A DNA stretch of 55,194 nt. Origin: Nitrospirota bacterium. GTDB lineage: Bacteria > Nitrospirota > Thermodesulfovibrionia > Thermodesulfovibrionales > JdFR-88. The notes beneath the pieces are model-generated. The model did not search any database, was not told the origin of the DNA, and saw only the letters and a program-made list of their open reading frames with translations. Both the position numbers and the translations under genes were made by a program. Location of the stretch: the NCBI GenBank assembly GCA_014874185.1, contig JACWAF010000034.1, forward strand, positions 1-55,194. Reading direction: 5' to 3'. Positions 173-30,640 of the stretch are shown here, one piece after another. Numbering within the stretch: position 1 is the stretch's first letter; every line of letters starts with the position of its first letter.

Positions 173-244
173 AATGTAATTATACTTATGAATCTCTTAG
201 TAAGAGAACCGGTTGAAAGGCAATATAACAGGCGGCATTCTCTA

Positions 245-925
245 ATGGGAATATTCATGACGGCGATGGCCTATCTTGCCGTGGCATCGTTTGCGGGAAG
301 GATACTCTGGCGCATCCTGCTTTTAACCAGGGCGCGCGAAGTGCCGACGGATGGCCCCGGCGCAAGCACGCCAAAACTCATCCTGAAAGGCGCTGCGGAC
401 ATCCTGCTTCTAAGGAGGCTTTTCCGGGACAACGGTGCATTATGGGCAGGGGAATGGCTGTTTCATATCTCCTTCATCCTTATAGTGCTGGGGCACATGA
501 GGTTTTTTTTCAACCCCGTGCCGGAGTTCTTCAACACGTTCAGGATTATGGGATATGCGGCTGGCTATGTCTTCCTGTTCGCAGTCCTCTACATACTGGT
601 GTTCAGGGTTGCGATTGAAAGGGGCGCTTATATATCACAGCGGAACTTCATCCTCGTCCTCATCGCCTTTTTTATCGGGGCAAGCGGGATGTATATGCAT
701 TTGATTGACCGGATAGACCTTGTGATGGTAAAGGAATTCGGGTTGGGGATAGTCTCATTCAGTCCTCAGGCCGCGCCGCACGGGGGGATATTCGTCATTC
801 ATTTCATCCTGGCAATGCTGTTTATCCTGCTCATCCCATCGCATGTATTCACGGCGCCCTTTGTGGTCACGGATGCCCGGAGACGGGAAGAAATGCTCCG
901 GAAGGTGATGCATGGCGAAGAGTAA
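245..925 (+). CDS. HdrE/DsrM-like membrane cytochrome b subunit
   Basis: A polytopic membrane protein of about 226 residues with roughly five hydrophobic segments, resembling the cytochrome b subunit of HdrDE and the NarI/DsrM family. Candidate haem b histidines lie in the segments with WLFHISFILIVLGH and in PHGGIFVIHFILAMLF...PSH. It would pass electrons between the quinone pool and the Fe-S partner encoded next, with which it overlaps by 14 bases. The frame is open from 50, but 51-172 is a palindromic repeat. The first membrane segment starts just after the ATG at 245; ATGs at 188 and 257 are alternatives, and none has a strong ribosome site. The family assignment is firm; the electron partner is inferred from context. 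Confidence 0.75.
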   Translation: MGIFMTAMAYLAVASFAGRILWRILLLTRAREVPTDGPGASTPKLILKGAADILLLRRLFRDNGALWAGEWLFHISFILIVLGHMRFFFNPVPEFFNTFRIMGYAAGYVFLFAVLYILVFRVAIERGAYISQRNFILVLIAFFIGASGMYMHLIDRIDLVMVKEFGLGIVSFSPQAAPHGGIFVIHFILAMLFILLIPSHVFTAPFVVTDARRREEMLRKVMHGEE

Positions 926-2117
926 AGATTCCTTTGCCTGCGGGCTCGGCCCCAGGGAGCTTATAGAGCTTGACGCCTGCACCCAGTGCGGCGAGTGCAT
1001 AAAGTTCTGCCCGGTGCAGGACGTGACGGGAAGGCCATCTATCTCCCCGCCGGAGAAGATACGGATGTATAAAGAGTTCATAAGGGCAACGGACGGCCTG
1101 AGGGCCGCGCTATTTGGCCCCAGGGAGGTGGACAGGGAACTCCTCGAAGAGTTCTCCAGGGCCGTCTTCGAATGCACCACCTGCGGGGCCTGCGGAGAGG
1201 CCTGCACGGTTGGGATTTTTACCCAGAGATTATGGCCGATGCTCCGCCGGGAGATGGTGCGAAGGGGGCTTGGCCCCATAGGGGCGCAGCGGGAGATACC
1301 TGGCGTGGTGGAGAAGACGGGCAACCCTTACAATAAATCCGCCGCAGAGAGGTTCAGTCCGTGGCTTCCCGAGGGCCTGCCCCTTCGGGACATGGCCCCT
1401 CTCGCCTATTATGCGGGGTGCACGGGGGCATACGAGGCCATGCCGATGGTGCGCGGGGACGCGCTGGTGCTGCGCGAAATTGGCGGGCCCTTTACGATGC
1501 TTCCCCCCGAAGAGGAAGTCTGCTGCGGATTTCCGCTCTTCATAACCGGGCAGTTCGATTTGCTGGAAGGGCTTGTGAAAAGGCTGGTGGAGGGTTACAG
1601 GAGCCGTGGAGTAAAAACCCTGCTCTGCTCATGCCCGTGCTGCGTGAACATGATGTCGCGCGACTGGCCTCTGTTTTATGGCGGTCCGCTCCCGTTCAGG
1701 ATCATGCATATGAGCCAGTTCGCGGCGGCCGCGATAAAATATGGAAGACTCTCCATCAAGAGGGAATTGAATGAGCGGCTCATCTATCACGACCCGTGTT
1801 ATTTGAGCAGGGGGGTGGGGATTATCGAAGAGCCAAGATACATACTGGGCGAAATACCGGGGGCGCATCTCCTGGAATTCGCGCGCCACGGGGCGGAGTC
1901 GCGCTGCTGCGGCGCGGGCGGCGCGGCCAGAAAGGTCTTCCACGAGAACGCGATAGCAATAGCCAGGCTCTCCATTGACGAGGCGGCAGCGAAGGGGGCG
2001 GACAAGCTTGTTTTAAGCTGCCCGGCCTGCTATTCGAAGGTGAACGAGGCCCTTCAGGGCCATGGGAAACAGATAAGGATAATAGATATCATGGAACTGG
2101 TATCGGAGCTTATATGA
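912..2117 (+). CDS. HdrD-like Fe-S heterodisulfide reductase subunit
   Basis: A 401-residue soluble protein. Two 4Fe-4S motifs lie near the N-terminus (C23-x2-C26-x2-C29-x3-C33 and C88-x2-C91-x2-C94-x3-C98). Two CCG domains follow, each with the C-x(34-35)-CC-x(33-36)-CxxC pattern that binds the unusual active-site cluster in HdrB/HdrD (about residues 165-255 and 290-395). This architecture is HdrD; DsrK, GlpC and lactate-utilisation proteins are more distant relatives. With the cytochrome b upstream it should form a membrane-anchored disulfide or thiol oxidoreductase. Its stop overlaps the cysteate synthase start (ATGA), which indicates translational coupling and a thiol linked to coenzyme M. 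The true substrate cannot be read from sequence. Confidence 0.88.
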   Translation: MAKSKDSFACGLGPRELIELDACTQCGECIKFCPVQDVTGRPSISPPEKIRMYKEFIRATDGLRAALFGPREVDRELLEEFSRAVFECTTCGACGEACTVGIFTQRLWPMLRREMVRRGLGPIGAQREIPGVVEKTGNPYNKSAAERFSPWLPEGLPLRDMAPLAYYAGCTGAYEAMPMVRGDALVLREIGGPFTMLPPEEEVCCGFPLFITGQFDLLEGLVKRLVEGYRSRGVKTLLCSCPCCVNMMSRDWPLFYGGPLPFRIMHMSQFAAAAIKYGRLSIKRELNERLIYHDPCYLSRGVGIIEEPRYILGEIPGAHLLEFARHGAESRCCGAGGAARKVFHENAIAIARLSIDEAAAKGADKLVLSCPACYSKVNEALQGHGKQIRIIDIMELVSELI

Positions 2118-3367
2118 GCCATTTTGCACTTAAATGCCGGGCCTGCGGGAAAATTCTGAAAGAGTCTTATTGCGCTTTCTGCGAGCACTGCGCGAACGCC
2201 CTTCTGGTCGCGGAGTACAAGGACAGGGAGTTCGAAAAAGAGGGCAGGGGGATTTGGAGGTTCAACTGGCTTCCGGTGCACCGGCCGGAGTTCGATCAGC
2301 CGGGCCCAGTGGTCTACAAATCGGAGGGGCTGGCGAGGCATCTGGGCCTTCATAACCTGCATATCGCATTCAACGGGTACTGGCCGGAGCGGGACGCGAT
2401 GATCGAGACCTGCACATTCAAGGAATTCGAGGCGGCCGTGGTCCTTCAGAACGCGCGTGAAAACGGCGTGAACGGCCTGATCGTGGCCTCAGCCGGAAAT
2501 ACGGCCCGCGCATTTGCGCACCTTTCCTCGATTTCCCGTTTCCCGGTGGTTATAATAGTGCCCAGGGCGTGCCTTACCGAGATGTGGTATCTGGAGAACT
2601 CCGGGTTCGTGCCAACACTCGCCATCTCGGACGGAGACTACTCGGATTCGATAGACGTTGCAAAGCGGGTCGCGCTGGCGGCGGGCATCCCCTTTGAGGG
2701 AGGCGTAAAGAACGTCGCCAAGCGTGACGGGCTTGGGGTAGTGCTCCTTGAGGCGGTCTCGAAGATGGGGGTGCTCCCGGCGCACTACTTCCAGGCCGTG
2801 GGAAGCGGCACCGGCGCGATAGCCGTGTGGGAGACGGCCGAGAGGTTCATAGCCGCCGGGGGGCACGGGGACAAACTGCCCGTGCTGCACCTTGCGCAGA
2901 ACCTGCCCTTTGCGCCGATGACAAAGGCATGGCAGAGGGGCCAGAGGGAGCTATTGAGGGAAGATTTGAACAAGGATTTCATAGAGCTTATAAGCACAAG
3001 GGTGCTCTCCAACCGCTATCCGGCTTATAGCATAAAAGGCGGCGTCTTCGACGCCCTTCAGGCCACGGGCGGGAAGATGTATGGCGTAAAGAACGAGAGC
3101 GTCTTCAGGGCGATGAACCTCTTCAGGGAACTGGAGGGAATCGACATCGTGCCCGCCGCCGGCGTGGCGGTCGCGGCTCTGATGGAGAGCGCGGGAAATA
3201 AAGAGCTGGAGCATGATGCGCCAATCCTTCTGAACATAACGGGGGGCGGCGAGCGGCGGCTAAAAATGGAAAGGGAAATACACGAGGTCTCACCCGTATT
3301 CATATCGAAAAACATCTCTGAAAAGGAGATCGAAGAGCTTCTATGCAAGCGCCTGAAGACCGCCTGA
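2114..3367 (+). CDS. Cysteate synthase (PLP enzyme, Methanosarcina type)
   Basis: A 417-residue threonine-synthase-fold PLP enzyme. An N-terminal zinc-ribbon-like segment (CxxC at 8-11, CxxC at 23-26) precedes the motif TFKEFEA (K103, the expected PLP lysine), the phosphate-binding loop ASAGNT (125-130), QAVGSGTGA and a C-terminal NITGGGERR. From memory these blocks, including GYWPE and YKSEGLA, match Methanosarcina cysteate synthase better than ordinary threonine synthase. That enzyme converts O-phosphoserine and sulfite to L-cysteate, the first step of coenzyme M synthesis in those archaea. It overlaps both neighbours, and the next gene encodes the enzyme for a later step of the same path. 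Threonine synthase is the main alternative and is made unlikely by that pairing. Confidence 0.85.
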   Translation: MSHFALKCRACGKILKESYCAFCEHCANALLVAEYKDREFEKEGRGIWRFNWLPVHRPEFDQPGPVVYKSEGLARHLGLHNLHIAFNGYWPERDAMIETCTFKEFEAAVVLQNARENGVNGLIVASAGNTARAFAHLSSISRFPVVIIVPRACLTEMWYLENSGFVPTLAISDGDYSDSIDVAKRVALAAGIPFEGGVKNVAKRDGLGVVLLEAVSKMGVLPAHYFQAVGSGTGAIAVWETAERFIAAGGHGDKLPVLHLAQNLPFAPMTKAWQRGQRELLREDLNKDFIELISTRVLSNRYPAYSIKGGVFDALQATGGKMYGVKNESVFRAMNLFRELEGIDIVPAAGVAVAALMESAGNKELEHDAPILLNITGGGERRLKMEREIHEVSPVFISKNISEKEIEELLCKRLKTA

Positions 3368-4485
3368 TAGAGATCCTCAAGACTGCCGGGGTGGACTTTG
3401 CCTCAAGCCTCCCATGCGAAAAGGTGAAGACCCTCCTTTGCAGGCTTAACTTCCTTGGCATGCATGTCCCGCTTACCCGCGAGGAAGAGGGCGTTGGCAT
3501 CTCCGCCGGGGCGGCTCTTGCGGGCAGGAGGCCCATGATGGTGGTGCAAAGCTCCGGGGTGGGCAATATGCTGAATGCCCTTTTGTCGCTCACCGGTTTT
3601 TACGGCCTTCCGCTTGCAATCTTTGTAAGCCAGAGGGGCATATACAAGGAAGGCATAGCCGCCCAGGCGCCGATGGGAAAGATGCTGCCCGGAATCCTGA
3701 ACGGGGCGGGCATCCCATATACTTTGATAGGCGGCAGGGAGGAGATCGAAAAAATTGCCTCCCCCCTGAAAGAGGTTTACGCCAAAGGACTCCTGCATGC
3801 GTTTCTATTGAGCCCGGCGATATGGGAAGGCTCTTCCGCGGCGGCCGTGCCGGAGGCGGCGAACTTTATTCAGACCGTGCCCGCGCCCTGCTCATATGAG
3901 AAAAAAGCCCCATCCCATACCAGATATGAAGCCCTCAAAGTGATCGCGCCCTTTTTAAAGGGAAACGTAGTTGTCTCAAACATAGGTATCCCGTCGAAAG
4001 AACTCTACAACCTGCTCCCGCAGGGATCGAATTTCTATATGCTCGGCAGCATGGGTATGGCAAGCCCCATCGGGCTTGGAGTGGCGCTCTGCACGAAGAG
4101 AAAGGTCTTCGTGATAGACGGCGACGGGAGCATACTGATGAACCCGGGCACGCTTGCCACGATCGCTTTAATGGACCCGCAGAACCTGACCATACTGGCC
4201 ATAGACAACGGCGCATACGGCTCTACCGGGAACCAGCCAACCCACGCAAGATATGTAACAGACCTTTCGGTGGTTGCGCGCGGGTTCGGGATAAGAGAGG
4301 TGGAGAAGGCCTCTGAAGAGGGCGAGATAATCCGGGCGCTGAGTTCAGCCCCGAAAGGCCCCCGGTTTCTCCACATAATCACGCGCCCCGGAAACGCCCC
4401 GGTCCCGAATATCCCGCTATCGGCCGGGGAGATAAAACGGGCTTTTATGGAGGGCCTAACCCCCTTTAATTTAAGGGGGGATTAA
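3343..4485 (+). CDS. comDE: Sulfopyruvate decarboxylase, fused ComD-ComE
   Basis: A 380-residue TPP enzyme that fuses the two subunits found separately in many methanogens. The ComD-like half (about 1-165) carries the activating glutamate in REEEGVGISAG (48-49). The ComE-like half (about 190-370) carries the TPP/Mg motif starting GDGS (260-263) and ending IDN (287-289). It decarboxylates 3-sulfopyruvate to sulfoacetaldehyde in coenzyme M synthesis. The start lies 25 bases inside the cysteate synthase gene. Phosphonopyruvate decarboxylase is the close relative, but no PEP mutase is nearby. The last residues (LTPFNLRGD) and the stop codon come from an interspersed palindrome at 4458-4493, so the C-terminus has been rewritten. 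An aminotransferase to make sulfopyruvate from cysteate is not in the window. Confidence 0.86.
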   Translation: MQAPEDRLIEILKTAGVDFASSLPCEKVKTLLCRLNFLGMHVPLTREEEGVGISAGAALAGRRPMMVVQSSGVGNMLNALLSLTGFYGLPLAIFVSQRGIYKEGIAAQAPMGKMLPGILNGAGIPYTLIGGREEIEKIASPLKEVYAKGLLHAFLLSPAIWEGSSAAAVPEAANFIQTVPAPCSYEKKAPSHTRYEALKVIAPFLKGNVVVSNIGIPSKELYNLLPQGSNFYMLGSMGMASPIGLGVALCTKRKVFVIDGDGSILMNPGTLATIALMDPQNLTILAIDNGAYGSTGNQPTHARYVTDLSVVARGFGIREVEKASEEGEIIRALSSAPKGPRFLHIITRPGNAPVPNIPLSAGEIKRAFMEGLTPFNLRGD

Positions 4486-4493
4486 AGGGGGTT
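4458..4493. repeat. Interspersed palindrome at convergent gene ends
   Basis: Perfect 13-bp inverted arms AACCCCCTTTAAT (4458-4470) and ATTAAAGGGGGTT (4481-4493) surround TTAAGGGGGG. The unit supplies the comDE stop codon and touches the stop of the convergent Omp85 gene. A sister copy lies inside hypF (23912-23959) and a related one at about 107-148. In RNA it would fold into a strong hairpin and could end transcription from either side, although no clear T-tract follows. Confidence 0.8.
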
Positions 4494-5724
4494 AAAAAGG
4501 GTATCCAAGTGTCACGAAAGCGGCCAACCCCTGGCCGATGCCCAGGTCAACCCTGCCAACTATATTGGGCCGTATTACAGCCCTGAACCCCACGCCCGGA
4601 CAGGGTTTGAAATCGCTCAGCGCTGCGCTGCCAAGGGAAGGCATCACGGCGCCGTAATCCAGGAAAGGGGCGACTTCCCAGTCTGAATCCACATTGAACA
4701 GGCGCCAGCGGAACATCCTTATCCTCTCTTCAAGATTCAGCAGCATGGATGCCTTGTCTATGAACCGGTTTCTTCCATAGCCCCTGAGCGTGTTCTCCCC
4801 GCCCAGGATGCTCCTGTCCAGAAACGGGGCATTATTTCCCACGGTCTCGCTTGCGGAAACCCGCACCACTGTTATATACCTGCCTTTATGTGCCTGGATG
4901 AATCTCTTGAACTCCCCCTCGTAGATCTGGTAATTGGCCGCGCTGCCCAGTATCTTTGAGCTTGCCTCGAATGTTGCCCTGGCGTAAGTGCCTGAAAGCG
5001 GAATGGCGCGAGGCGCCAGTGTGCTGTAAATAAACCCGATCCCCTGTGCGTGCGAGATAAACCCGTTCAGCCCCGGCACCCGGGAGGCGCTGAACCTGTC
5101 TTTGGTGAAGGGGAGCGTTGTTACCGCGCCTTTGATTATGTCCACCCTTCTAAGCCGTTCGTATACGACCACCTGCAGGCTCCGCGCGATATTGTAGGCG
5201 GCGGAGGCCGCAAAGCCCGTCTCGTCGTCTCCGAAATCGGTTTCGGAAGAAAACCTGCTGTCCGGGCCGAAGCCGAAGAACCTTGCCGAGCCGTCCGTAT
5301 ACTTGAAGGCGAACGCCCTCAGCTCCAGCTTCCCTCCCAGGAACGTCTTGTCGCGAAATTTCACCTCATAATCGTTGTTCACTTTTTCGGATTGCGAGAG
5401 GTTGATCTCCCAGCTCCGTTCGGGAAGCGGGTAAAGGGCCATGTAGATGGTCCCGGTAACGCCGTAATTTTCGTTATAGTTGATCTGGGGCGCTATAAGG
5501 CTGCTTACCTCGCCGTACTTGTTATGCAGCAGAAAGGCCGTCAAGGCCCCGTATGTGCCGCCTTCGGTAGGGTTGTAAGAGACGGCGGGAAGGGGGATAG
5601 TGACCATCTTCACCTTCCTGCCGAAGTCCTTGTTCGTTACGATGCCTGGCAGGTCCTCCTTGTTCACCATGCTGGTGCAGGAGGCGCAAAGCATCAATAT
5701 CAGGATTGCCGTTATTTTCCGCAC
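4492..5724 (-). CDS. Omp85-family outer-membrane barrel protein, no POTRA
   Basis: A 410-residue exported protein. The N-terminal hydrophobic segment ends at a possible lipobox (LCASC), so it may be a lipoprotein, although cysteine at -3 is unusual. The rest is a run of alternating beta strands with the Omp85 signature GGENTLRGY (the VRGF/Y-type motif of loop 6) in the C-terminal third and a terminal aromatic residue (GYPF). It matches the barrel (surface antigen D15) half of BamA-type proteins, but the segment before the barrel is too short for POTRA domains. It converges on comDE and is divergent from idi. Family membership is clear; its substrate or role is unknown. Confidence 0.8.
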   Translation of the reverse strand: MRKITAILILMLCASCTSMVNKEDLPGIVTNKDFGRKVKMVTIPLPAVSYNPTEGGTYGALTAFLLHNKYGEVSSLIAPQINYNENYGVTGTIYMALYPLPERSWEINLSQSEKVNNDYEVKFRDKTFLGGKLELRAFAFKYTDGSARFFGFGPDSRFSSETDFGDDETGFAASAAYNIARSLQVVVYERLRRVDIIKGAVTTLPFTKDRFSASRVPGLNGFISHAQGIGFIYSTLAPRAIPLSGTYARATFEASSKILGSAANYQIYEGEFKRFIQAHKGRYITVVRVSASETVGNNAPFLDRSILGGENTLRGYGRNRFIDKASMLLNLEERIRMFRWRLFNVDSDWEVAPFLDYGAVMPSLGSAALSDFKPCPGVGFRAVIRPNIVGRVDLGIGQGLAAFVTLGYPF

Positions 5725-5868
5725 GCGGGTAGTTTAAAATTTTTTTCTGAAAAATAATACAGATGATTGGGCCATTTGTAACCAAAAAACTTGATGAAAG
5801 GCAATTATAACTTTGGTATTATTAATATGCAAAAAGGGCGCTTCCGGGCCAAAACGGCGAGAGGTTTT

Positions 5869-6414
5869 ATGAAACGGATTGTCATAGTGGACGAAGAAGA
5901 CAACGTGCTGGGGGAAGAGGACAAGGACAGGTGCCACGAGGGGGAGGGGATCCTCCACAGGGCCTTCCTCGCAATGATTTTCAATAAAAAAGGGGAGGTC
6001 CTGCTTGCCAGAAGGAGCGCGAAAAAGAAGCTCTGGCCCGGTTTCTGGGACGGCACCGTCGCAAGTCATCTCTCGAAAGGCGAGACCTGTGAGCAGGCTG
6101 CCATTAGGAGGCTCTCCGAGGAGATAGGCGTGAATGCCCGCCCGGTAAGCTACCTGTTTAAATTCCGGTACAAGGCAAATTACGGAGGGATCGGTTCGGA
6201 AAACGAGATATGCGCCCTTCTGACGGCACAGGCCGAAAAGGCCGAGCTTCTTCCCAACCCTGACGAGATCTCCGAAACGTGTTTTATCCGCCCCGAACGC
6301 CTTGTCCAGGCGGCCGGGGCTTGCCAATTCACACCATGGTTCATCCTGGCCATCGGAAAGATGCGCGGGATAGAGCTGGAAAAGGAGGGCAGGCGTGCGG
6401 GCACTCTTTCTTAA
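5869..6414 (+). CDS. idi: Isopentenyl-diphosphate delta-isomerase, type I (Nudix)
   Basis: Interconverts IPP and DMAPP, feeding squalene and hopanoid synthesis. The 181-residue product is a Nudix-fold protein: LHRAFLAMIF near residue 30, FWDGTVASH, and the helix RRLSEEIG correspond to the conserved blocks of type I isomerase. The start at 5869 is preceded by GAGAGG at 5859-5864; upstream codons in the same frame look non-coding. It is the first gene of the hopanoid run and overlaps hpnJ by 20 bases. A generic Nudix hydrolase is possible, but the context and the conserved blocks favour Idi. Confidence 0.87.
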   Translation: MKRIVIVDEEDNVLGEEDKDRCHEGEGILHRAFLAMIFNKKGEVLLARRSAKKKLWPGFWDGTVASHLSKGETCEQAAIRRLSEEIGVNARPVSYLFKFRYKANYGGIGSENEICALLTAQAEKAELLPNPDEISETCFIRPERLVQAAGACQFTPWFILAIGKMRGIELEKEGRRAGTLS

Positions 6415-7810
6415 TCCGCCTTCCTTCGGGGGGTTCGACGGCGGCGCGGGCGCCCGTTATCAGGCCAGGCGCGAGATACGCTCGTTCTGGTACCCAGTAT
6501 GGCTGGCCTATCCTGCCGGGCTTGTAAAGGACAGCCGCCTTATAGACGCCCCTCCGGCCGGGCTTACGCTGGACGACGTCCTTCGGGAGGCGAAGGGCTA
6601 TGACCTCATTATAATTCACACCAGCACTCCCACATTCCGCAACGACTGCAAGGTTGCGGAAAGGCTGAAAGAGAGTTATCCGAAAACAATGGTAGGCTTC
6701 GTTGGGCCGCACGTGATGGTGCTCCCCCGCGAATCGCTTCTGGCCTCCAGGGCCATAGATTTCGTCTGCACTGGCGAGTTCGATTTCACCATAAAAGAGA
6801 TCGCCGATGGAAAGCCCCTTGAAAAAGTGGACGGGATAGCTTTCCTGAAGAACGGCACTTTCGTGCAGACGCCGTTCAGGCTGCCTATAGAGGACCTGGA
6901 CTCTTTGCCCTTCACGACGGACGTTTACGCAAGGAACCTGAAAATAGAGCACTATTATAACGGATACCTGTTTCATCCATATCTGGCCATCCATACGGGA
7001 AGGGGCTGCAAGGCCCTGTGCACGTTCTGTCTCTGGCCCCAGACGATAGGGGGCAGGCAGTACCGCACCAGGAGCATCGATCACGTCATGGAGGAAGTGA
7101 GGCACGCTAAAGAGATACTTCCGCAGATAAGCGAGTTCTTCTTCGACGATGACACCTTCACCACAGACCTGCCACGGGCGGAAGAGATCGCGAGGCGGAT
7201 GGGCCCGCTTGGGTTAAGGTGGTCCGCCAACGCGCGGGCGAACGTGCCCTATGAGACCCTGAAAGTAATGAAAGACAACGGCCTCAGGCTCCTCACCGTG
7301 GGCTTCGAGTCCGGAAACCCGCAGATACTTAAAAATATCAAAAAGGGGATAACTGTTGAGGGCGCGAAAAAATTCATGAAGGCCACCAAGGACCTTGGCA
7401 TTCTGGTGCACGGCGCTTTCATACTGGGGCTTCCTGGCGAAACTCCGGAGACCATGGAAGAGACCGTGCGCTATGCCATGGAACTGGACCCCTACAGCAT
7501 CCAGGTCTCGCTCCCCGCGCCGTATCCAGGGACCGAGCTTTACGCCCAGGCGGTCAAAGAGGGCTGGATAAAAAAAGACGGCCTCATAGAGGGGGGGATA
7601 CAGAACTCCGTTATCTCGTATGACCATCTATCGTCCGGGCAGATATTCGAGGAGCTTGAGAAATTCTACAGGCGGTTCTACCTGCGGCCCCGCCCCATAC
7701 TGCGCATCCTGAAAGAGATGCTCACGAGCCGCACCGAGTTCACGCGCCGGATCCGGGAAGGATACGAATTTTTCTCCTTCATGTCAAAGAGGAAGGAGAT
7801 CCTCGAATAG
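6395..7810 (+). CDS. hpnJ: HpnJ, B12-binding radical SAM hopanoid enzyme
   Basis: A 471-residue protein with an N-terminal cobalamin-binding-like domain (about 1-160), then a radical SAM core with the cluster motif CKALCTFC (about 206-213). It begins with GTG at 6395 behind AGGAGGGCAGG. HpnJ contracts the sugar-derived side chain in making bacteriohopanetetrol cyclitol ether, acting after HpnI and HpnK. Its N-terminal NPPSFGGFDGGAGARYQ region matches the HpnJ family as I recall it. hpnK follows after 8 bases. Confidence is high because sequence and neighbourhood agree. Confidence 0.92.
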   Translation: MRALFLNPPSFGGFDGGAGARYQARREIRSFWYPVWLAYPAGLVKDSRLIDAPPAGLTLDDVLREAKGYDLIIIHTSTPTFRNDCKVAERLKESYPKTMVGFVGPHVMVLPRESLLASRAIDFVCTGEFDFTIKEIADGKPLEKVDGIAFLKNGTFVQTPFRLPIEDLDSLPFTTDVYARNLKIEHYYNGYLFHPYLAIHTGRGCKALCTFCLWPQTIGGRQYRTRSIDHVMEEVRHAKEILPQISEFFFDDDTFTTDLPRAEEIARRMGPLGLRWSANARANVPYETLKVMKDNGLRLLTVGFESGNPQILKNIKKGITVEGAKKFMKATKDLGILVHGAFILGLPGETPETMEETVRYAMELDPYSIQVSLPAPYPGTELYAQAVKEGWIKKDGLIEGGIQNSVISYDHLSSGQIFEELEKFYRRFYLRPRPILRILKEMLTSRTEFTRRIREGYEFFSFMSKRKEILE

Positions 7811-7818
7811 CTCCCCCG

Positions 7819-8673
7819 ATGGCCCTGTCTTCAGAAGGGAAATACCTGGTTGTGAACGCGGACGATTTCGGGAGGAGCCATGGCGTGAACACGGCTGTGC
7901 TGGATGCCTTTAAAGACGGGATACTGAATTCCGCCAGCCTGATGGCCGCGGGGAAGGCTTTCGACGAAGCCGTTCATATAGCCCGTTCCAATCCTGGCCT
8001 TTCAGTAGGGGTGCACCTGACCCTTTGCGATGGCAAAAGCGTCCTGCCCCATTCCAGGATACCAGGGCTTGTGGACCAAGATGGGGAATTCCAAAAGGGC
8101 CCGGCGCTAGCAGGGCTATTATACTGGTTTAAGAGGCGCTCCCTTTCGGGGCAGATCGAGGCTGAAATCAAGGCCCAGGTGCAGCGTATACTGGATGCGG
8201 GGATACCGCCATCCCATATCGATTCCCATCATCATCTGCACATACATCCGCTCATTTTCCCTATGGCCGCAAAAGCCGCCGCTGAAAAAGGGATCAGGTG
8301 GATAAGGGTCCCGCGCGAGCCCTTTTCCGCATCGGTGCAGGATTTTTACAAGCTCTCGGAATGGGGGGTATTCAAGGCCCTTGGAGGGCGGAATGAAAGG
8401 CGCGCGCGGGCATTGGGGCTCGATTTTCCGGCCAGCACGTTCTGCCTGTCCAGGAGGGGGAGACCCGATGAAAAAAAAGCCTTGCGGCTTTTTTCCCACA
8501 TGGGGGCGCGCGTATGCGAGCTTTACGCGCATCCTGATGCCGAAACGGCGGCTGGGGCAGGGGAGCTTGGCCTTTTGAAGGCGCCCTCGATCAGGAAGTA
8601 TTTTGGTTCAAAAAAGTATATACTATGCGGATATAGAGAAATCCCGGAGGGATCAGGGAGGGTATCCTATTAA
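7819..8673 (+). CDS. hpnK: HpnK, YdjC-type hopanoid deacetylase
   Basis: A 284-residue YdjC/ChbG-family carbohydrate deacetylase. Metal-binding residues are visible in NADDFG (14-19) and DSHHHLHIHP (about 135-144), with VGVHLTL between them. In hopanoid synthesis HpnK removes the N-acetyl group from the N-acetylglucosaminyl bacteriohopanetetrol made by HpnI, giving the substrate for HpnJ. The 3' end overlaps, or nearly abuts, the start of the small transporter gene. Confidence 0.92.
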   Translation: MALSSEGKYLVVNADDFGRSHGVNTAVLDAFKDGILNSASLMAAGKAFDEAVHIARSNPGLSVGVHLTLCDGKSVLPHSRIPGLVDQDGEFQKGPALAGLLYWFKRRSLSGQIEAEIKAQVQRILDAGIPPSHIDSHHHLHIHPLIFPMAAKAAAEKGIRWIRVPREPFSASVQDFYKLSEWGVFKALGGRNERRARALGLDFPASTFCLSRRGRPDEKKALRLFSHMGARVCELYAHPDAETAAGAGELGLLKAPSIRKYFGSKKYILCGYREIPEGSGRVSY

Positions 8674-9094
8674 AACTCTGGTGCTTGCCCTTATCGCGGC
8701 GCTGTCCGCCTCGATAGGTGAAAGCTTTTTAAGCTTCGGCATGAAGAGGATAGGCGAATCAGAGTGGGTTGGCCCCTGGGGATGGTTCCGCTGGCTGATT
8801 GCCGTCATCTCCACTCCCTACATTATCATAGGGGTCGTCTTCCTGGCCTGTTTTTTCTTTCTGTACCTCATCACGCTTTCCCATGCGGACCTGAGTTACG
8901 TGCTGCCCATCACCGCCGCCTCGATAGTCTTTGCCGCCATACTTGCAAGGATATTCCTGAAAGAGAGGATATCCGCGATCAGGCTTGCCGGCATTGCCGT
9001 CATCATCCTTGGCATAATTATCATTTCAATGGATAGATCCGTTTTGACATCCAGGCCGACGGACGATTCCATGAGAGAAATAAGGAGCGAGTAA
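8669..9094 (+). CDS. Four-TM DMT/SMR-type small transporter in the hopanoid operon
   Basis: A roughly 140-residue integral membrane protein with four hydrophobic helices, resembling half-size members of the drug/metabolite transporter superfamily (EmrE, ArnE/ArnF). The last two helices hold the conserved-looking pattern LSHADLSYVLPI...ARIFLKERIS. The start is uncertain. A strong AGGGAGGG at 8655-8662 sits six bases before ATT at 8669, which overlaps the hpnK stop; GTG at 8681 is normal but too far; TTG at 8603 would lie deep inside hpnK. Its place between hpnK and shc suggests export or flipping of a hopanoid or its lipid-linked sugar, by analogy with ArnE/F. That role is inference. Confidence 0.78.
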   Translation: MKTLVLALIAALSASIGESFLSFGMKRIGESEWVGPWGWFRWLIAVISTPYIIIGVVFLACFFFLYLITLSHADLSYVLPITAASIVFAAILARIFLKERISAIRLAGIAVIILGIIIISMDRSVLTSRPTDDSMREIRSE

Positions 9095-9198
9095 AACATA
9101 TGAATTCCTTTTTAAATCCCTGTGGCTCAAGCTGTTCCGGTTTGACAATAAAATGCTTTCCTGATAGCGTTTTTAAAAGAAATGCCTTTTAAAAAACC

Positions 9199-11166
9199 AT
9201 GAAAATTAAAGAAAATCCGGACTTTAAAAATACGATCTATTTCCCCGCCGCAAAGGCCGGAGCGGACCCCGACTCATTATCCGGGGAGCTTCTGGACAGG
9301 ATAGAGTCCGCAATAAAGAAAACTCATAAGTATTATATCTCCGAGCAGCACGAGGAGGGCTACTGGTGGTACGAGCTGGAGTCGAACGTGACCATCACGG
9401 CGGAGTACCTCATGCTGCTGCACTTCCTTGGCCTCAAGGACAAGGACAGGGATGACAAGATCGCCAAATACATCATCGGCAAGCAGCGGCCGGACGGCAC
9501 GTGGGCCATCCACTGGGGCGGCAAGGGCGACCTGAGCACGACGGTTGAGGCCTACTTCGCCCTGAAGCTTGCGGGCATTTCGGCGGACGAGCCCTTTATG
9601 AGACGTGCGCGCAGCTTCATACTGGCAAACGGCGGGGCAGGCTATTCGCGGGTATTCACGAAGATATTTTTGGCCCTCTTCGGCGAGTTCAGGTGGGACG
9701 ACCTCCCTTCGCTTCCCGTGGAGCTGATGCTCATTTCATCTCCGGTCAGCATCTATGATTTTTCAAGCTGGGCGCGTTCAACGGTTGTGCCTTTGCTGAT
9801 AATCCTTGACCTGAAGCCCGTGCAGCCGATACCCGAAAGCGCGCGCATCGGCGAGCTTTACCTGACAAATAACGGCGTGAGAAGCCTGAACCACAAGCCG
9901 GATACGGTAGTGAAGAAGGTGCTGAGCGTTCTTGACCGGATACTGAAGGGACTTGAGAAGTCTCCCGTCAGGCCGCTGAGGAGCAAGGGCCTGGCAGCCG
10001 CCGAGAAATGGATACTGGACCACCAGGAGGAATCCGGAGACTGGGGCGGGATACAGCCCCCGATGGTGAACTCGATCCTGGCCCTCTGGGCCCTTGGTTA
10101 CAGCCTCTCCAGCGAGCCCATCTCAAAGGGCCTTGAGGCCCTGAAAAGGTTCACCATAGAGACAGACGGCGAGATGGTCCTGCAATCGTGCATATCGCCC
10201 GTCTGGGACACGGCCCTCGTCTGCCTGGGCCTTCAATATTCGGGGATGGACAGGAACCATTTCTCTCTCATGAAGGGGTCGCGCTGGCTCGCCTCCGGGC
10301 AGATACTTAAAAAGGGCGACTGGAGTGTGAAGAGGCCGAATATCCAGCCCGGGGGCTGGGCCTTCGAGTTCGAGAACAACTGGTACCCGGACGTTGACGA
10401 TACGGCCGTCGTCCTCATGTTCCTTTTGAACTATAAAAGCAATCACGCGATGAACGAGAAGATAAACAGGGGCATAGACTGGGTCCTGGGCATGCAGGGT
10501 ACGGACGGGGGCTGGGGGGCTTTCGACGCGGACAATAACATGTCGGTGCTGAACCAGATACCCTTCGCCGATCTAGAGGCCATGATAGACCCCAGCACGC
10601 CCGATATCGCCGGGCGGGTGCTGGAGGTGCTGGGCAAGGCCGGCTACGGCCTGTCGCATCCGAAGGTCCGGAGGGCGGTTGACTATATAAAAAGAAACCA
10701 GGAAGACGACGGCTCGTTCTGGGCCAGGTGGGGAGTGAACTATATTTACGGGACATGGAGCGTCCTGATGGGCCTCGCTTCGATAGGCGAGGACATGCAG
10801 GCCCCATATGTGAGGAAATCCGTCGAATGGCTGAAAGGCTTTCAGAACCTGGACGGCGGGTGGGGCGAGTGCTGCGAGTCCTATGCCGACAGGCGGCTGA
10901 GGGGGCACGGGCCCAGCTGCCCGTCACAGACGGCCTGGGCGCTTCTCGCGCTGATAGCAGCGGAAGAGGCCGGCTCCACGGAAGTGGAAAAAGGGATTAA
11001 ATATCTCCTTGACAGACAAAACCCCGACGGCACATGGGATGAGGAGCAGTTTACAGGCACCGGCTTTCCGAAGTATTTCATGATCCGCTATCACAATTAC
11101 CGGAACTGCTTTCCGCTGATGGCCCTGGGCAAATATCACTCGGCCAAAAAAGGCCCGTTCCGATGA
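9199..11166 (+). CDS. shc: Squalene-hopene cyclase
   Basis: A 655-residue class II terpene cyclase that turns squalene into hopene/hopanol at the inner membrane. The catalytic acid motif is DVDDTA (about residues 397-402). Several QW-type repeats are visible (QRPDGTWAIHWGG, GDWGGIQPP, GTDGGWGAF, EDDGSFWARWG, NLDGGWGECCESY, NPDGTWDE). The length is normal for the family. A 104-base gap upstream holds a TTGACA at 9142-9147 without a convincing -10 box, so a local promoter is possible but weak. The stop overlaps the hpnA start (ATGA). Confidence 0.97.
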   Translation: MKIKENPDFKNTIYFPAAKAGADPDSLSGELLDRIESAIKKTHKYYISEQHEEGYWWYELESNVTITAEYLMLLHFLGLKDKDRDDKIAKYIIGKQRPDGTWAIHWGGKGDLSTTVEAYFALKLAGISADEPFMRRARSFILANGGAGYSRVFTKIFLALFGEFRWDDLPSLPVELMLISSPVSIYDFSSWARSTVVPLLIILDLKPVQPIPESARIGELYLTNNGVRSLNHKPDTVVKKVLSVLDRILKGLEKSPVRPLRSKGLAAAEKWILDHQEESGDWGGIQPPMVNSILALWALGYSLSSEPISKGLEALKRFTIETDGEMVLQSCISPVWDTALVCLGLQYSGMDRNHFSLMKGSRWLASGQILKKGDWSVKRPNIQPGGWAFEFENNWYPDVDDTAVVLMFLLNYKSNHAMNEKINRGIDWVLGMQGTDGGWGAFDADNNMSVLNQIPFADLEAMIDPSTPDIAGRVLEVLGKAGYGLSHPKVRRAVDYIKRNQEDDGSFWARWGVNYIYGTWSVLMGLASIGEDMQAPYVRKSVEWLKGFQNLDGGWGECCESYADRRLRGHGPSCPSQTAWALLALIAAEEAGSTEVEKGIKYLLDRQNPDGTWDEEQFTGTGFPKYFMIRYHNYRNCFPLMALGKYHSAKKGPFR

Positions 11167-12206
11167 AGGCCCTCGTGACCGGGGCCACCGGCTTCATAGG
11201 CTTTCATGTGGCCCTGAAACTCCTTGAAAAAGGGATATCCGTGCGGGCCGTCGCAAGGCGTGAAACCGATGCCGCCGCGCTTAAAAAATCCGGGGCGGAA
11301 ACGGCATCGTGTGATATAAGGGATTATCAGTCCGTAAGAAAGGCGATGGAGGGCTGCGCCCAGGTTTACCACCTTGCCGCGGATTACAGGCTGTGGGCCC
11401 CTGTGCCGCAGGAGATGTACGATATAAACGTATCCGGCACCCGTAACGTGCTTCAGGCGGCCCTTGACCTTGGAGTTGAAAAAGTGGTGCATACAAGCAG
11501 CGTGGGCGCGCTGGCCCCGGCAAAAAACGGGACCCCCTCTGACGAAAACACGCCGGTAGAGATGAGGATGATGTGCGGAGACTACAAGAAATCCAAATTT
11601 CTTGCCGAGCGCGCGGCGGAGGAATTCGCCCGAAAAGGCCTGCCGGTAGTGATCGTGAACCCGACCACCCCGATAGGCGCGATGGACAGGAAACCGACAC
11701 CTACGGGAAAGGTCATCGTGGATTTCCTGAACGGCAAAATGCCTGCCTATCTTGATACCGGGCTCAATTTCGTGGACGTGGAAGACGTTGCCTCAGCGCA
11801 TCTCCTTGCGGCCGAAAAGGGGAGGATTGGCGAAAAATATATCCTCGGAAACACTGACCTCACCCTGAGGAAATTCCTCGGGAAACTTGGCGCCGTCTCC
11901 GGGAGAAGACCTCCTTCGGTCAGGCTTCCCTACATGCCAGTCCTGATCGCGGCCTATATAAGCGAAGCGTTTTCCTCCGTAACGAAAAAGCCGCCTTTGA
12001 TCCCCCTGGCCGGAGTGAAGATGGCCCGGAACTACATGTTTGCAAGCTGCAATAAAGCGAAATCGGAACTGGGGATGGCCTCTTCGCCCATCGAGGGCGC
12101 GATAGAAAAGGCAGTGAAATGGTTTTCTGAAAACGGGTACGTCAAACGCAAAGCAGACAGAAAGGAGATTCAGTGCGCTTCCAGCCAGGACTCTATGCCT
12201 CGATGA
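11163..12206 (+). CDS. hpnA: HpnA, NAD-dependent epimerase-like hopanoid protein
   Basis: A 347-residue extended short-chain dehydrogenase/reductase. The nucleotide motif TGATGFIG is at residues 7-14 and the catalytic YxxxK appears in DYKKSKFLAE (about 138-147). HpnA proteins are regular members of hopanoid clusters, annotated as sugar epimerases or dihydroflavonol-reductase-like, but their exact reaction is not settled. It overlaps shc by 4 bases and hpnH by 34 bases, so the three are almost certainly co-translated. Confidence 0.93.
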   Translation: MKALVTGATGFIGFHVALKLLEKGISVRAVARRETDAAALKKSGAETASCDIRDYQSVRKAMEGCAQVYHLAADYRLWAPVPQEMYDINVSGTRNVLQAALDLGVEKVVHTSSVGALAPAKNGTPSDENTPVEMRMMCGDYKKSKFLAERAAEEFARKGLPVVIVNPTTPIGAMDRKPTPTGKVIVDFLNGKMPAYLDTGLNFVDVEDVASAHLLAAEKGRIGEKYILGNTDLTLRKFLGKLGAVSGRRPPSVRLPYMPVLIAAYISEAFSSVTKKPPLIPLAGVKMARNYMFASCNKAKSELGMASSPIEGAIEKAVKWFSENGYVKRKADRKEIQCASSQDSMPR

Positions 12207-27484: not shown

Positions 27485-30400
27485 TTACCGGCACTGTACC
27501 TGCACGGAGAATTTCAGATAGCCGGACTCGCCGGGATTCAGGACCGCCCTGGATGTCAGCGTGCCGAAATTTACGGAGAGCGTTCCATTGGCCAGCGTGA
27601 CCCCGTCCGTGTCGGGGACATCACTAATGCCCCCATAATATGTGGTCCCCTGGCAGTTGAACTCTATATCCTTTGTGGAAGAGGAATACTGGCCGTTTAA
27701 GAAGGTGGTCCCGGCCGGGATGAGATCGGAAAAAGTTATGCTGTTAAGGGGCTTCGCGCCCATGTTCTTGTAGTCTATCCTGTATTCGAGGATATCGCAG
27801 GGCTTTGCCGAATCAAGATAAGTGAAACTTTCACCGGCGGTCACGTTCCTTACCGATTTTGTCAGAAGCAATGTGCCCGACCCCTGCGGATTTACGCTTA
27901 TGGTGTCGCTTGCGATTGCCAGGTCGTCGTAGACCGTTCCCGTTTCCGGATCGGGATTGGATTGGGTGTCAGCGGAGTTGTTCCAGTTTTCATAAAGCAT
28001 TACTTTAAGCACCTCAACGGTGTTCAGGGGGGTGTTGGTTGGCACGACGGTTTTGATCACTATGCAGGTTGCCCCTGCGGGAAGCGGTGCGCCCCCGTTC
28101 AGGGTGAAATAACCGCCGTTTGGCGCAATCGGCGCGCTCAGGGTACTGCCATCACAAAGCGGATTATTAAAGACCGAATAAGTCCATGCGTTGCTGGAAG
28201 AGAGCATGACGGCGGCTGTTCCGGGGGTTTTCAGGTTGATAATATGCCTTATGGTAAGCGAATCGCCCAGGGAGACAAGATAGGACTGGTCCGGTGCTAT
28301 CGCAAGCGCTTTCACAAACCCGAAATTGAAGCCTGAAAAGACCTGACCCGAAGCCATCGTGTATGCGGTTATATTCCGCTCCGCATCCGGAACGGTCGTG
28401 TTCTTCTGGATTGAAGCCCCTATGGAGCTTCCAGTGGATTTGTACCCGGAGGGCTCGGCGGCGGTTATGAAAACCGGCGTGCCGTCCGGGAGGCTGCCGG
28501 CCGGTATCCATAATGTGTATTGCCCGTAGCTGTCCGTGCCGGACGAGGCCGCCACACTCGCGCAGCTCGAAGTGGTGCAGGCCTTCACCGTGCCGTTATA
28601 AATCCCCTGCTCGCCTGTATCCAAAAGGGCATTATTGGCCGCCGGGCTTCCCGCGCTCCCGTCCCCCTTGTCTTCGAAAACAGCCCCTTTTACGATCATC
28701 CCATGAAAATCCCCGAAGGCATTTCCTGCAAGGCTGGCGTTGGAGACGTTTATGTTTAGCGTGTCAGGGGTTGTCTGGAGCCATCCCGCAGGGGTGGAGG
28801 GGGTGCAGGATGTGGTCAGGTTGTCGGCGCTCTGGTTTACAGTATAAGCTCCGTTCAGGACGTTCTGGAACTGGTAATAGCCCGTTGCCGGATCCGCCTG
28901 GACCACCTTCTGCACATTCCCGCTCTGGTCGCAGAGCTTTAAATATGCCGTTGCGTTCAGCCCCGTCTCCCAGGTCTCCTTTACCATATCGTGATTGGAG
29001 TCGTTGAAGACGTACCCGCTTACGTTATAGCCGTAACTGTCTCCGAAGTCCTGGTTGGCTATATCCATTCCGGCTACGGTTATGTTCATGGTGTTTGGCG
29101 TGGTAGAGGCCCAGAGGGGCGGATCGGAAGGTGTGCAGTTCGTGACCGCTGAATTGGCAGATTCCACCAGGTTCCATGCGCCGCTGGTAAGACCGTCAAG
29201 CTCGTAATAGCCGGTCAGGGGATCGGCTTGGGCCACGTTTATCACCTTTCCCGAAAGGACGTCGCATTGCTTCACGTACATGGGTGTGCCAAGCCCTCCC
29301 TCATTTGGGTCCTTTACCCCGTTTGAGTTCTGGTCGTTGAAGACGTAGCCGTCCACGAGCACGCCCGGTATGCCGCATGTGTCATTAAAGGAGGCAACGA
29401 CCGGGCTGGCGCCGGACGTGCCCGGGTCGTAAGTAGGGCTGGAGGAGCTGGTGTCATACGAGTCCGAGACGTTGCCCTGGTTGTCGGCGGCCACGGCTTT
29501 GACAAGGTATTTCCCCTGGGACAGGCCGGTGGGGTTCCATGCAAGCGTCCACGGGCTCAGGCCGTTTGTCGAAGCGGCATCCCCTATGTAGTGCCAGATA
29601 TGGCCGTCATCGGCCAGCCCGTTTCCATTCGAGTCCTTGTAGTAATAGAACTTCACAGACTGCACCGTGGTGGCCACGGTGGAACAGTTATTCGCGGTAT
29701 CGGCGTCCAGCACGTTTACCGAAAGGGTGACCGAGCTGGAGCAGGAAGTGGAACTGGGCGCGGTCTGTATAACGGGTTTCTGGGTGATCAGGCCGGAGGC
29801 CGAAACGGAATCGCCGAAGGGCAGGGGATTGGCGGTATTCCCCGTGTTGTAGCAGCCGGCGTAGACGAAGTCTTTCTGGGCGGGATTCGCATTGGAGTTG
29901 GCGGTGGCAAACCCGTATGCGAACCAGCTGTTTGCAGTAAGAGCGGGCCCCCCGTAGGCCGAGGCGTCGAGGGCCGCAAGGGGCACCTGGATATCCAGGA
30001 AGTATTCGTTATTGCCCAACTGGATCACGCGGGTCCTGCCGAAATCCCATACCCCTGGCGTGGTGCTGGTGTTCCAGTCCGAAGGGCCGCCAACTTCCCC
30101 GTCGACATCGTTCGGGTTATCGGGGTTTCTTGCCGAATCCTGTCTCCAGAGGACGGTCGCCGAACTGAGGTCCTGGCTTTTTGTGCTGCTGTAGTAAACA
30201 ACTATGTCCTCCGGGGCCAGGCTGCTCTTGTCCTGCCCGTCCAGCTGGACGGCGAACTTCTTGTATCCGCTGCCGTCCAGGTCCAGGAGGACCGTCCAGG
30301 AGATGGAAGAGTAAGGGACATTATTTCCGTTAAGCTGCAAAGGGTTGCCGTTCAGCCTGAACCTGAAATACAGGTTCGTCCCATCGCCATAGACGTAAGT

Positions 30401-30640
30401 GGACGGGCTTGTGCCGTCGCCAACGTCTGCCGCCTGCTGAGGGGTGGTGCCGCCCGTGGACTGGTCCTGCCCGCCGTTCTGGTCTATGACCGCTGTCCCC
30501 TGATATGTATAGTTCATCCAGATGGCATCGGGCCAGGGGGCCGGGTAACCGGGCGGGTCCGAATAGTTTACGGCCATCCCGAAGGCCGCAGCCGGAAAGA
30601 GCAGAAAGGCAAGTGAAAAAAACAGGGCCAATTTCTTCAT
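27485..30640 (-). CDS. Secreted SdrD-B/DUF11 repeat protein, 1,051 aa
   Basis: A large exported protein with signal peptide MKKLALFFSLAFLLFPAAAFG. Residues 20-290 form a beta-rich domain of unrecognised family. Three SdrD-B-like modules follow, starting near 430, 542 and 650, the first two with VFND(Q/S)N...G(V/M)K and calcium-loop-like DQNSNGVKD. The last 130 residues are a DUF11-type domain ending YLKFSVQVQCR. It has no membrane anchor or LPxTG. The ATG overlaps the stop of the 2,451-aa barrel gene (ATGA), so the two are co-translated and probably work together. A surface-displayed adhesin or sheath component held by the barrel protein is an inference. Confidence 0.8.
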   Translation of the reverse strand: MKKLALFFSLAFLLFPAAAFGMAVNYSDPPGYPAPWPDAIWMNYTYQGTAVIDQNGGQDQSTGGTTPQQAADVGDGTSPSTYVYGDGTNLYFRFRLNGNPLQLNGNNVPYSSISWTVLLDLDGSGYKKFAVQLDGQDKSSLAPEDIVVYYSSTKSQDLSSATVLWRQDSARNPDNPNDVDGEVGGPSDWNTSTTPGVWDFGRTRVIQLGNNEYFLDIQVPLAALDASAYGGPALTANSWFAYGFATANSNANPAQKDFVYAGCYNTGNTANPLPFGDSVSASGLITQKPVIQTAPSSTSCSSSVTLSVNVLDADTANNCSTVATTVQSVKFYYYKDSNGNGLADDGHIWHYIGDAASTNGLSPWTLAWNPTGLSQGKYLVKAVAADNQGNVSDSYDTSSSSPTYDPGTSGASPVVASFNDTCGIPGVLVDGYVFNDQNSNGVKDPNEGGLGTPMYVKQCDVLSGKVINVAQADPLTGYYELDGLTSGAWNLVESANSAVTNCTPSDPPLWASTTPNTMNITVAGMDIANQDFGDSYGYNVSGYVFNDSNHDMVKETWETGLNATAYLKLCDQSGNVQKVVQADPATGYYQFQNVLNGAYTVNQSADNLTTSCTPSTPAGWLQTTPDTLNINVSNASLAGNAFGDFHGMIVKGAVFEDKGDGSAGSPAANNALLDTGEQGIYNGTVKACTTSSCASVAASSGTDSYGQYTLWIPAGSLPDGTPVFITAAEPSGYKSTGSSIGASIQKNTTVPDAERNITAYTMASGQVFSGFNFGFVKALAIAPDQSYLVSLGDSLTIRHIINLKTPGTAAVMLSSSNAWTYSVFNNPLCDGSTLSAPIAPNGGYFTLNGGAPLPAGATCIVIKTVVPTNTPLNTVEVLKVMLYENWNNSADTQSNPDPETGTVYDDLAIASDTISVNPQGSGTLLLTKSVRNVTAGESFTYLDSAKPCDILEYRIDYKNMGAKPLNSITFSDLIPAGTTFLNGQYSSSTKDIEFNCQGTTYYGGISDVPDTDGVTLANGTLSVNFGTLTSRAVLNPGESGYLKFSVQVQCR

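Follow-up and report, generated by a model that had tools for sequence, protein, structure and literature searches.

The window analyzed here is contig JACWAF010000034.1 (C29; 55,194 nucleotides) from its base 1, one of the 42 contigs of the 2.43-Mb genome of a Nitrospirota bacterium (assembly GCA_014874185.1). Near its start, four open reading frames (ORFs) on the + strand overlap, in gene order, by 14, 4, and 25 bases. They encode a diheme cytochrome b of the NarI/HdrE/DsrM-like type (positions 245–925, 226 amino acids), an HdrD-like protein (912–2117, 401 amino acids), a cysteate synthase (2114–3367, 417 amino acids), and a fused sulfopyruvate decarboxylase, ComDE (3343–4485, 380 amino acids). 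These genes, and the larger cassette to which they belong, are examined here in relation to coenzyme M (CoM). An earlier reading of the window, made from the sequence alone (the sequence-only reading), had described the same four overlapping genes, and its coordinates and, almost without change, its annotations were confirmed: cysteate synthase and ComDE pass curated equivalog cut-offs, and the CCG motifs of the HdrD-like protein and the diheme character of the cytochrome b are present.

Positions 1–203 (no strand) are occupied by a dispersed repeat element that contains a palindrome (TCATTCCCGC ... GGAATGACA), and dozens of partial copies of it occur in the genome. A start of the cytochrome b ORF at base 50 was rejected because positions 50–203 belong to the repeat and the ATG at 245 is where homologues begin to align.

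Identity of the cysteate synthase and ComDE

The product of the third gene is a pyridoxal phosphate (PLP) enzyme, whose PLP lysine lies in an FKE motif at K103 in the alignment. It scored 468 bits against the cysteate synthase model TIGR03844 (cut-off 324.9), compared with 76 bits for the best threonine synthase model in the hidden Markov model (HMM) search. The best match in the PDB was cysteate synthase 9k3c (321 bits), whereas threonine synthase scored 42 bits. In a quick tree, the cassette PLP enzymes and 9k3c were separated from canonical threonine synthases with a Shimodaira–Hasegawa-like approximate likelihood ratio (SH-aLRT) support of 99%, at a point where long branches meet. Two separate threonine synthase paralogues are encoded in the same genome, one of them sharing ~66% identity with a threonine synthase of solved structure. 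ComDE passed the cut-offs of both sulfopyruvate decarboxylase models, the alpha model TIGR03845 at residues 6–161 (166.6 bits, cut-off 147.95) and the beta model TIGR03846 at residues 194–371 (229.9 bits, cut-off 221.5), whereas its score with the phosphonopyruvate decarboxylase model TIGR03297 (199 bits) was under the cut-off of 312.5. The thiamine pyrophosphate residues Glu48, Asp259, Asp261, and Asp288 are conserved.

It is extremely improbable that the two enzymes are misannotated, the one being a threonine synthase and the other a phosphonopyruvate decarboxylase. The superfamilies are common to both readings, and the phosphonopyruvate decarboxylase model does match at 199 bits, but only the CoM family cut-offs were passed, and two separate threonine synthases are encoded in the genome. 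The cysteate synthase also co-occurs strictly with an MtaA-type methyltransferase (see below). The threonine synthase identity was rejected on the HMM scores, the 9k3c match, and the tree, and the phosphonopyruvate decarboxylase identity on the missed TIGR03297 cut-off. The conditions that the sequence-only reading had named as refuting it, so far as they could be checked, did not go against it. At the family level, the PLP enzyme and ComDE are thus assigned by sequence to the enzymes of CoM synthesis.

The upstream half of the cassette and its distribution

In most relatives, these four genes make up the 3′ half of a cassette of 11–12 genes, as found by comparing gene order at 40 related loci. 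The upstream genes encode a second zinc methyltransferase of the UroD family, a carboxymuconolactone-decarboxylase-like protein, MtrH, an MtaA-type methyltransferase, a corrinoid protein, a QueG/reductive-dehalogenase-like Fe-S protein, RACo, the IscU-like protein DUF6951, and sometimes FolD. This half is not visible in the window because the contig end cuts the cassette. In the same genome, it is located on contig C13 (locus L096, positions 226–7613), the end of which is identical to the window start over 95 bases. From this overlap and the synteny, we infer that C13 and C29 are adjacent. If the contigs are joined, the stop codon of DUF6951 is ~390 bases from the start of the cytochrome b gene, and most of this distance is the repeat. 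In this arrangement, the repeat lies between the upstream half and the cytochrome b gene, and it accounts for the break in the assembly.

The MtaA-type protein on C13 scored 277.6 bits with the PRK06252 subfamily "methylcobalamin:coenzyme M methyltransferase" (cut-off 244) and also passed the cut-off of the MtaA/CmuA subfamily. Its best PDB match was Methanosarcina mazei MtaA (4ay7), and the zinc ligands His243, Cys245, and Cys321 are invariant in 29 sequences. The His-Cys-Cys ligands are invariant in both UroD-family enzymes of the cassette; such ligands were linked with S- or Se-methyl transfer in a study of type 1 mlp clusters (PMC10418091). A second MtaA-type cluster, with an enzyme ~50% identical, occurs in five carrier genomes. 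It includes a sensor kinase/response regulator, a CobW-like GTPase, a CbbQ-type AAA protein, a large VWA-like protein, DUF2284, UroD, a corrinoid protein, and RACo, and a gene resembling carbon monoxide dehydrogenase seems to be adjacent. In two genomes, a third MtaA-type enzyme, encoded beside a QueG/SCP2-like Fe-S protein, groups with M. mazei MtaA.

A scan of one genome per species with patterns specific to the Nitrospirota enzyme gave 73 named loci. Among them, the HdrD homologue was found at 66, DUF6951 at 59, RACo at 57, and MtrH and the MtaA-type enzyme at 49 each; many of the contigs end early. The linkage of the four genes is beyond chance, because their order recurs across dozens of genomes, and the recurrence in relatives that the sequence-only reading had proposed as a check extends across the phylum. 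Two further genes, c10 (an unknown protein of ~200 amino acids) and c11 (SsuA/NMT1-like), recur near the cassette, often divergently beside ComDE, and are also present on C13 (L096, 8141–10882); c11 apparently has no signal peptide at one locus. They were considered as CoM synthase candidates and set aside, being found at only about one-third of the 73 loci.

Among 61 relatives, cysteate synthase was detected in 23 and ComDE in the same 23 (199–232 bits, compared with 54 bits or less in the other relatives). The MtaA-type enzyme, the HdrD orthologue, and DUF6951 were each detected in 24 genomes, namely these 23 and one designated G055. In a phylum sample of 296 genomes, DUF6951 was present in 41 of the 42 genomes with cysteate synthase and in 3 of the 254 others, one of which has a truncated cysteate synthase. 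At least seven families contain both carriers and noncarriers, which suggests that the cassette is acquired or lost as a whole. The whole cassette is also found on a contig titled Thermoleophilia (Actinomycetota), which is either a lateral transfer or a mis-binned contig.

The HdrD-like protein and the cytochrome b

The HdrD-like protein has two PF02754 domains and a Fer4_8 domain. Its two 4Fe-4S motifs and two complete CCG motifs (C170-CC204/205-C241xxC244 and C296-CC332/333-C370xxC373) are conserved in 37 sequences. The best equivalog was TfrB, at 161 bits under a cut-off of 385. The proteins from cassette genomes of the same order are 63–74% identical and constitute a separate subfamily. 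The cytochrome b has five hydrophobic segments and four invariant histidines, His74, His84, His186, and His200, counted from position 245 (His139, His149, His251, and His265 from base 50). The Pfam search gave no match for it. In the Foldseek search with its AlphaFold2 model (predicted local distance difference test score, pLDDT, 91), the best match was NarI (1siw, probability 1.00), and EtfD (9ojn) was also found. A DsrMK identity of the pair was rejected, as the cut-offs of both equivalogs were missed (60.8 bits with DsrM NF038037, cut-off 300; 72.8 bits with DsrK, cut-off 400). In its two clusters and its diheme cytochrome, the pair is built like HdrED.

Gene order places the pair within the cassette more precisely. 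In one family, the cassette is split: the cytochrome b–HdrD genes are accompanied by RACo and DUF6951, and the cysteate synthase–ComDE genes are located elsewhere (L182/L183 and L058/L063). At three other loci, cysteate synthase–ComDE directly follows DUF6951, and HdrD is absent nearby. The pair therefore appears to be tied more closely to methyl transfer or corrinoid chemistry than to CoM synthesis. The sequence-only reading had locked the CoM genes to an HdrED-like complex. The anatomy of that complex stands, but the CoM genes have their main partner in the upstream corrinoid methyltransferase module, not in the pair alone.

The same split cassettes are compatible with a pair that does not act on CoM and is instead an EtfD- or DsrMK-like quinone oxidoreductase, supplying or withdrawing electrons for corrinoid activation or one-carbon (C1) oxidation. 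EtfD 9ojn, which joins NarI-like and HdrD-like parts, matches the cytochrome b in structure and the HdrD-like protein in sequence, and DsrM and DsrK models are among the profile matches. However, the first CCG motif of EtfD is without the CC pair, whereas both sites of the HdrD-like protein are complete and invariant, and the pair co-occurs strictly with the CoM genes. We regard this alternative as somewhat unlikely. As both CCG sites are complete, disulfide chemistry is our best guess for the pair from its sequence.

Predicted function and comparison with known systems

Here, we propose that the four genes probably form the 3′ half of a conserved cassette of uncultured subsurface Nitrospirota that makes CoM and methylates it, with CoM as the presumed product and the MtaA-type enzyme as its presumed user. 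Cysteate synthase, going by its family, would convert phosphoserine and sulfite to cysteate. A general aspartate aminotransferase would then yield sulfopyruvate, and ComDE would convert it to sulfoacetaldehyde, both steps likewise being assigned by family. Sulfoacetaldehyde may be converted to CoM by reductive sulfur insertion, perhaps with the IscU-like DUF6951 as the sulfur carrier. In the methylation half, where roles are again those of the families, the corrinoid protein would exchange methyl groups with CoM by way of the MtaA-type zinc methyltransferase, with tetrahydrofolate by way of MtrH, and with a methyl-sulfur (or selenium) compound by way of the second zinc methyltransferase, while RACo would keep the corrinoid cobalt reduced. 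The HdrD-like protein, whose two CCG sites are both complete, and its diheme cytochrome b would work in the membrane as an oxidoreductase for disulfides, and electrons would most likely pass between the quinone pool and CoM in the form of a thiol or a (hetero)disulfide. More tentatively, CoM may be a true methyl carrier in the C1 metabolism of these bacteria, connected to tetrahydrofolate through a soluble corrinoid system and to the membrane through an Hdr-type complex, and a new COG1900-independent CoM synthase may be built around DUF6951 and/or the HdrD-like protein.

Several observations weigh against this proposal. The last enzyme of archaeal CoM synthesis is MMP16/COG1900 (PMC12068725). 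It was found in none of the cassette genomes tested (TIGR03287, PF01837) and was rejected as the last enzyme of the cassette route, which leaves this step without a known enzyme. The methyl-CoM reductase (MCR) gene mcrA is present in none of the 61 genomes, and there is no known downstream use of methyl-CoM. The MtaA-type protein scored 247.8 bits with the narrow MtaA equivalog NF040654, under the cut-off of 400, and the MtaA homologues that bacteria carry in type 1 mlp clusters are assigned to methyl-selenium or methyl-sulfur metabolism without CoM (PMC10418091). The co-occurrence among the 61 genomes (Fisher's exact test, 6e-16) is descriptive only, as shared ancestry was not corrected for. 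Finally, two genomes with the methyltransferase genes gave no cysteate synthase: G055 keeps the module without cysteate synthase or ComDE, and in G299, an 88% complete genome, cysteate synthase was not found beside the methyltransferase half including DUF6951.

G055 is also the only one of the 61 genomes with MMP16. A ComA-family protein (PF02679) was found in it alone among ten genomes tested, and was absent from the genome of the window and eight other cassette genomes. These two proteins hint that G055 makes CoM by another route. The ComA-like protein scored 85.7 bits, far under the archaeal cut-off of 280, and neither the neighbors of its gene (prpD, an aldehyde dehydrogenase, and an aminotransferase) nor those of MMP16 prove such a route. 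At locus L173 of G055 (3949–11578), MMP16, which passes its cut-off, and a second COG1900-like gene flank a gene for an HdrD/TfrB-like CCG protein, in a bacterial MMP16 operon that also holds molybdopterin oxidoreductase and POR-type genes.

The absence of the known CoM synthase from the cassette genomes tested would also be explained if the product is not CoM; sulfoacetaldehyde could lead to taurine, isethionate, a sulfonolipid, or another sulfonated thiol, with the MtaA-type enzyme acting on a different thiol or selenol. There are precedents for both halves of this explanation. In type 1 mlp clusters, MtaA homologues operate in genomes without a role for CoM (PMC10418091), and cysteate synthase is used for sulfonolipid synthesis in gut bacteria (PMC11211663). 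However, ComDE consumes sulfopyruvate and is not needed in a cysteate-based sulfonolipid route. The synthesis genes occur almost perfectly with, and in the same operon as, an MtaA-type enzyme above a CoM methyltransferase cut-off, and MtrH is present, unlike in type 1 mlp clusters. Another product is considered unlikely, and CoM remains the preferred one.

As to how CoM would be formed from sulfoacetaldehyde, DUF6951 and/or the HdrD-like protein could perform the missing reductive thiolation, and the absence of COG1900 leaves room for them. The DUF6951 model has a pLDDT of 92.7, and its top Foldseek matches are almost all IscU, SufU, SufE, and CsdE, with weak E-values (best 0.03) and a template modeling (TM) score of ~0.5. 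Cys11, Cys35, His72, and Cys75 are invariant, a set that resembles the IscU ligands. Outside the cassette genomes, it was found, among 14 control genomes, only in Methanosarcina acetivorans. A role as a sulfur carrier or in Fe-S cluster assembly is possible for DUF6951. On the other hand, the fold match is weak, a function of DUF6951 in Fe-S or corrinoid metabolism is just as possible, and MMP16 is already present in M. acetivorans. Some cysteate synthase loci have no adjacent HdrD, and G299 has DUF6951 without cysteate synthase. We give a thiolation by either or both of these proteins a low probability.

The proposed route to CoM most closely resembles the cysteate route of Methanosarcina. 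In M. acetivorans, cysteate synthase (MA3297), fused ComDE (MA3298), and MMP16 (MA3299) are neighbors (PMC12713407; PMC12068725). The first two belong to the same families as the cassette enzymes and are likewise an adjacent pair in this order, whereas the cassette is bacterial, is without MMP16/COG1900 and MCR, and is joined to a corrinoid methyltransferase operon and an Hdr-like pair. With the soluble MtaA/MtbA of methylotrophic methanogens, the cassette enzyme shares the UroD fold, the His-Cys-Cys zinc site, a cognate corrinoid protein, and a reductive activator. Unlike them, it is bacterial, has MtrH (folate) and another zinc methyltransferase as its partners, and scores under the cut-off of the narrow MtaA equivalog. 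Type 1 mlp clusters of anaerobic bacteria (Kountz and Balskus, PMC10418091) also combine several UroD-family S/Se-methyltransferases with a corrinoid protein and RACo. The cassette has two UroD enzymes, the corrinoid protein, and RACo, but a type 1 cluster is marked by Mlp2 and Mlp3 and is without a folate methyltransferase, whereas MtrH and the CoM synthesis genes are in the operon of the cassette. HdrED, DsrMK, and EtfD all combine an HdrD-like CCG/4Fe-4S part with a NarI-like diheme cytochrome b; the cassette pair differs in being a separate subfamily inside a methyltransferase operon, without MCR. The known bacterial CoM route, that of Xanthobacter (as cited in PMC12068725), is similar in that a bacterium makes CoM, here predicted from genes. 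Its starting compound is phosphoenolpyruvate, and its first enzyme belongs to the ComA family, no member of which was found in the cassette genomes tested. No open-access report of CoM synthesis genes or of the cassette in Nitrospirota was found; most of the subscription literature was outside the search.

Downstream of ComDE, positions 5791–11166 of the window encode a type 1 isopentenyl-diphosphate isomerase followed by the hopanoid proteins HpnJ, an HpnK-like protein, and squalene-hopene cyclase. On the − strand, an ORF of 2451 amino acids (30637–37992) adjoins one of 1051 amino acids (27485–30640).

Among archaea, CoM is known in those that metabolise methane or alkanes; the bacteria known to have it are alkene degraders, which make it by an unrelated route. 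If the proposal is correct, CoM synthesis by the Methanosarcina route, together with CoM methylation, spans several Nitrospirota families that are without methyl-CoM reductase, and methyl-CoM would serve bacteria that are common in the subsurface and in groundwater for a purpose other than methanogenesis. CoM in environmental samples would then not necessarily stem from methanogens. The cassette also gives a short list of candidates for the addition of the thiol to sulfoacetaldehyde without COG1900, namely DUF6951, the HdrD-like protein with its cytochrome b, and the QueG-like Fe-S protein.

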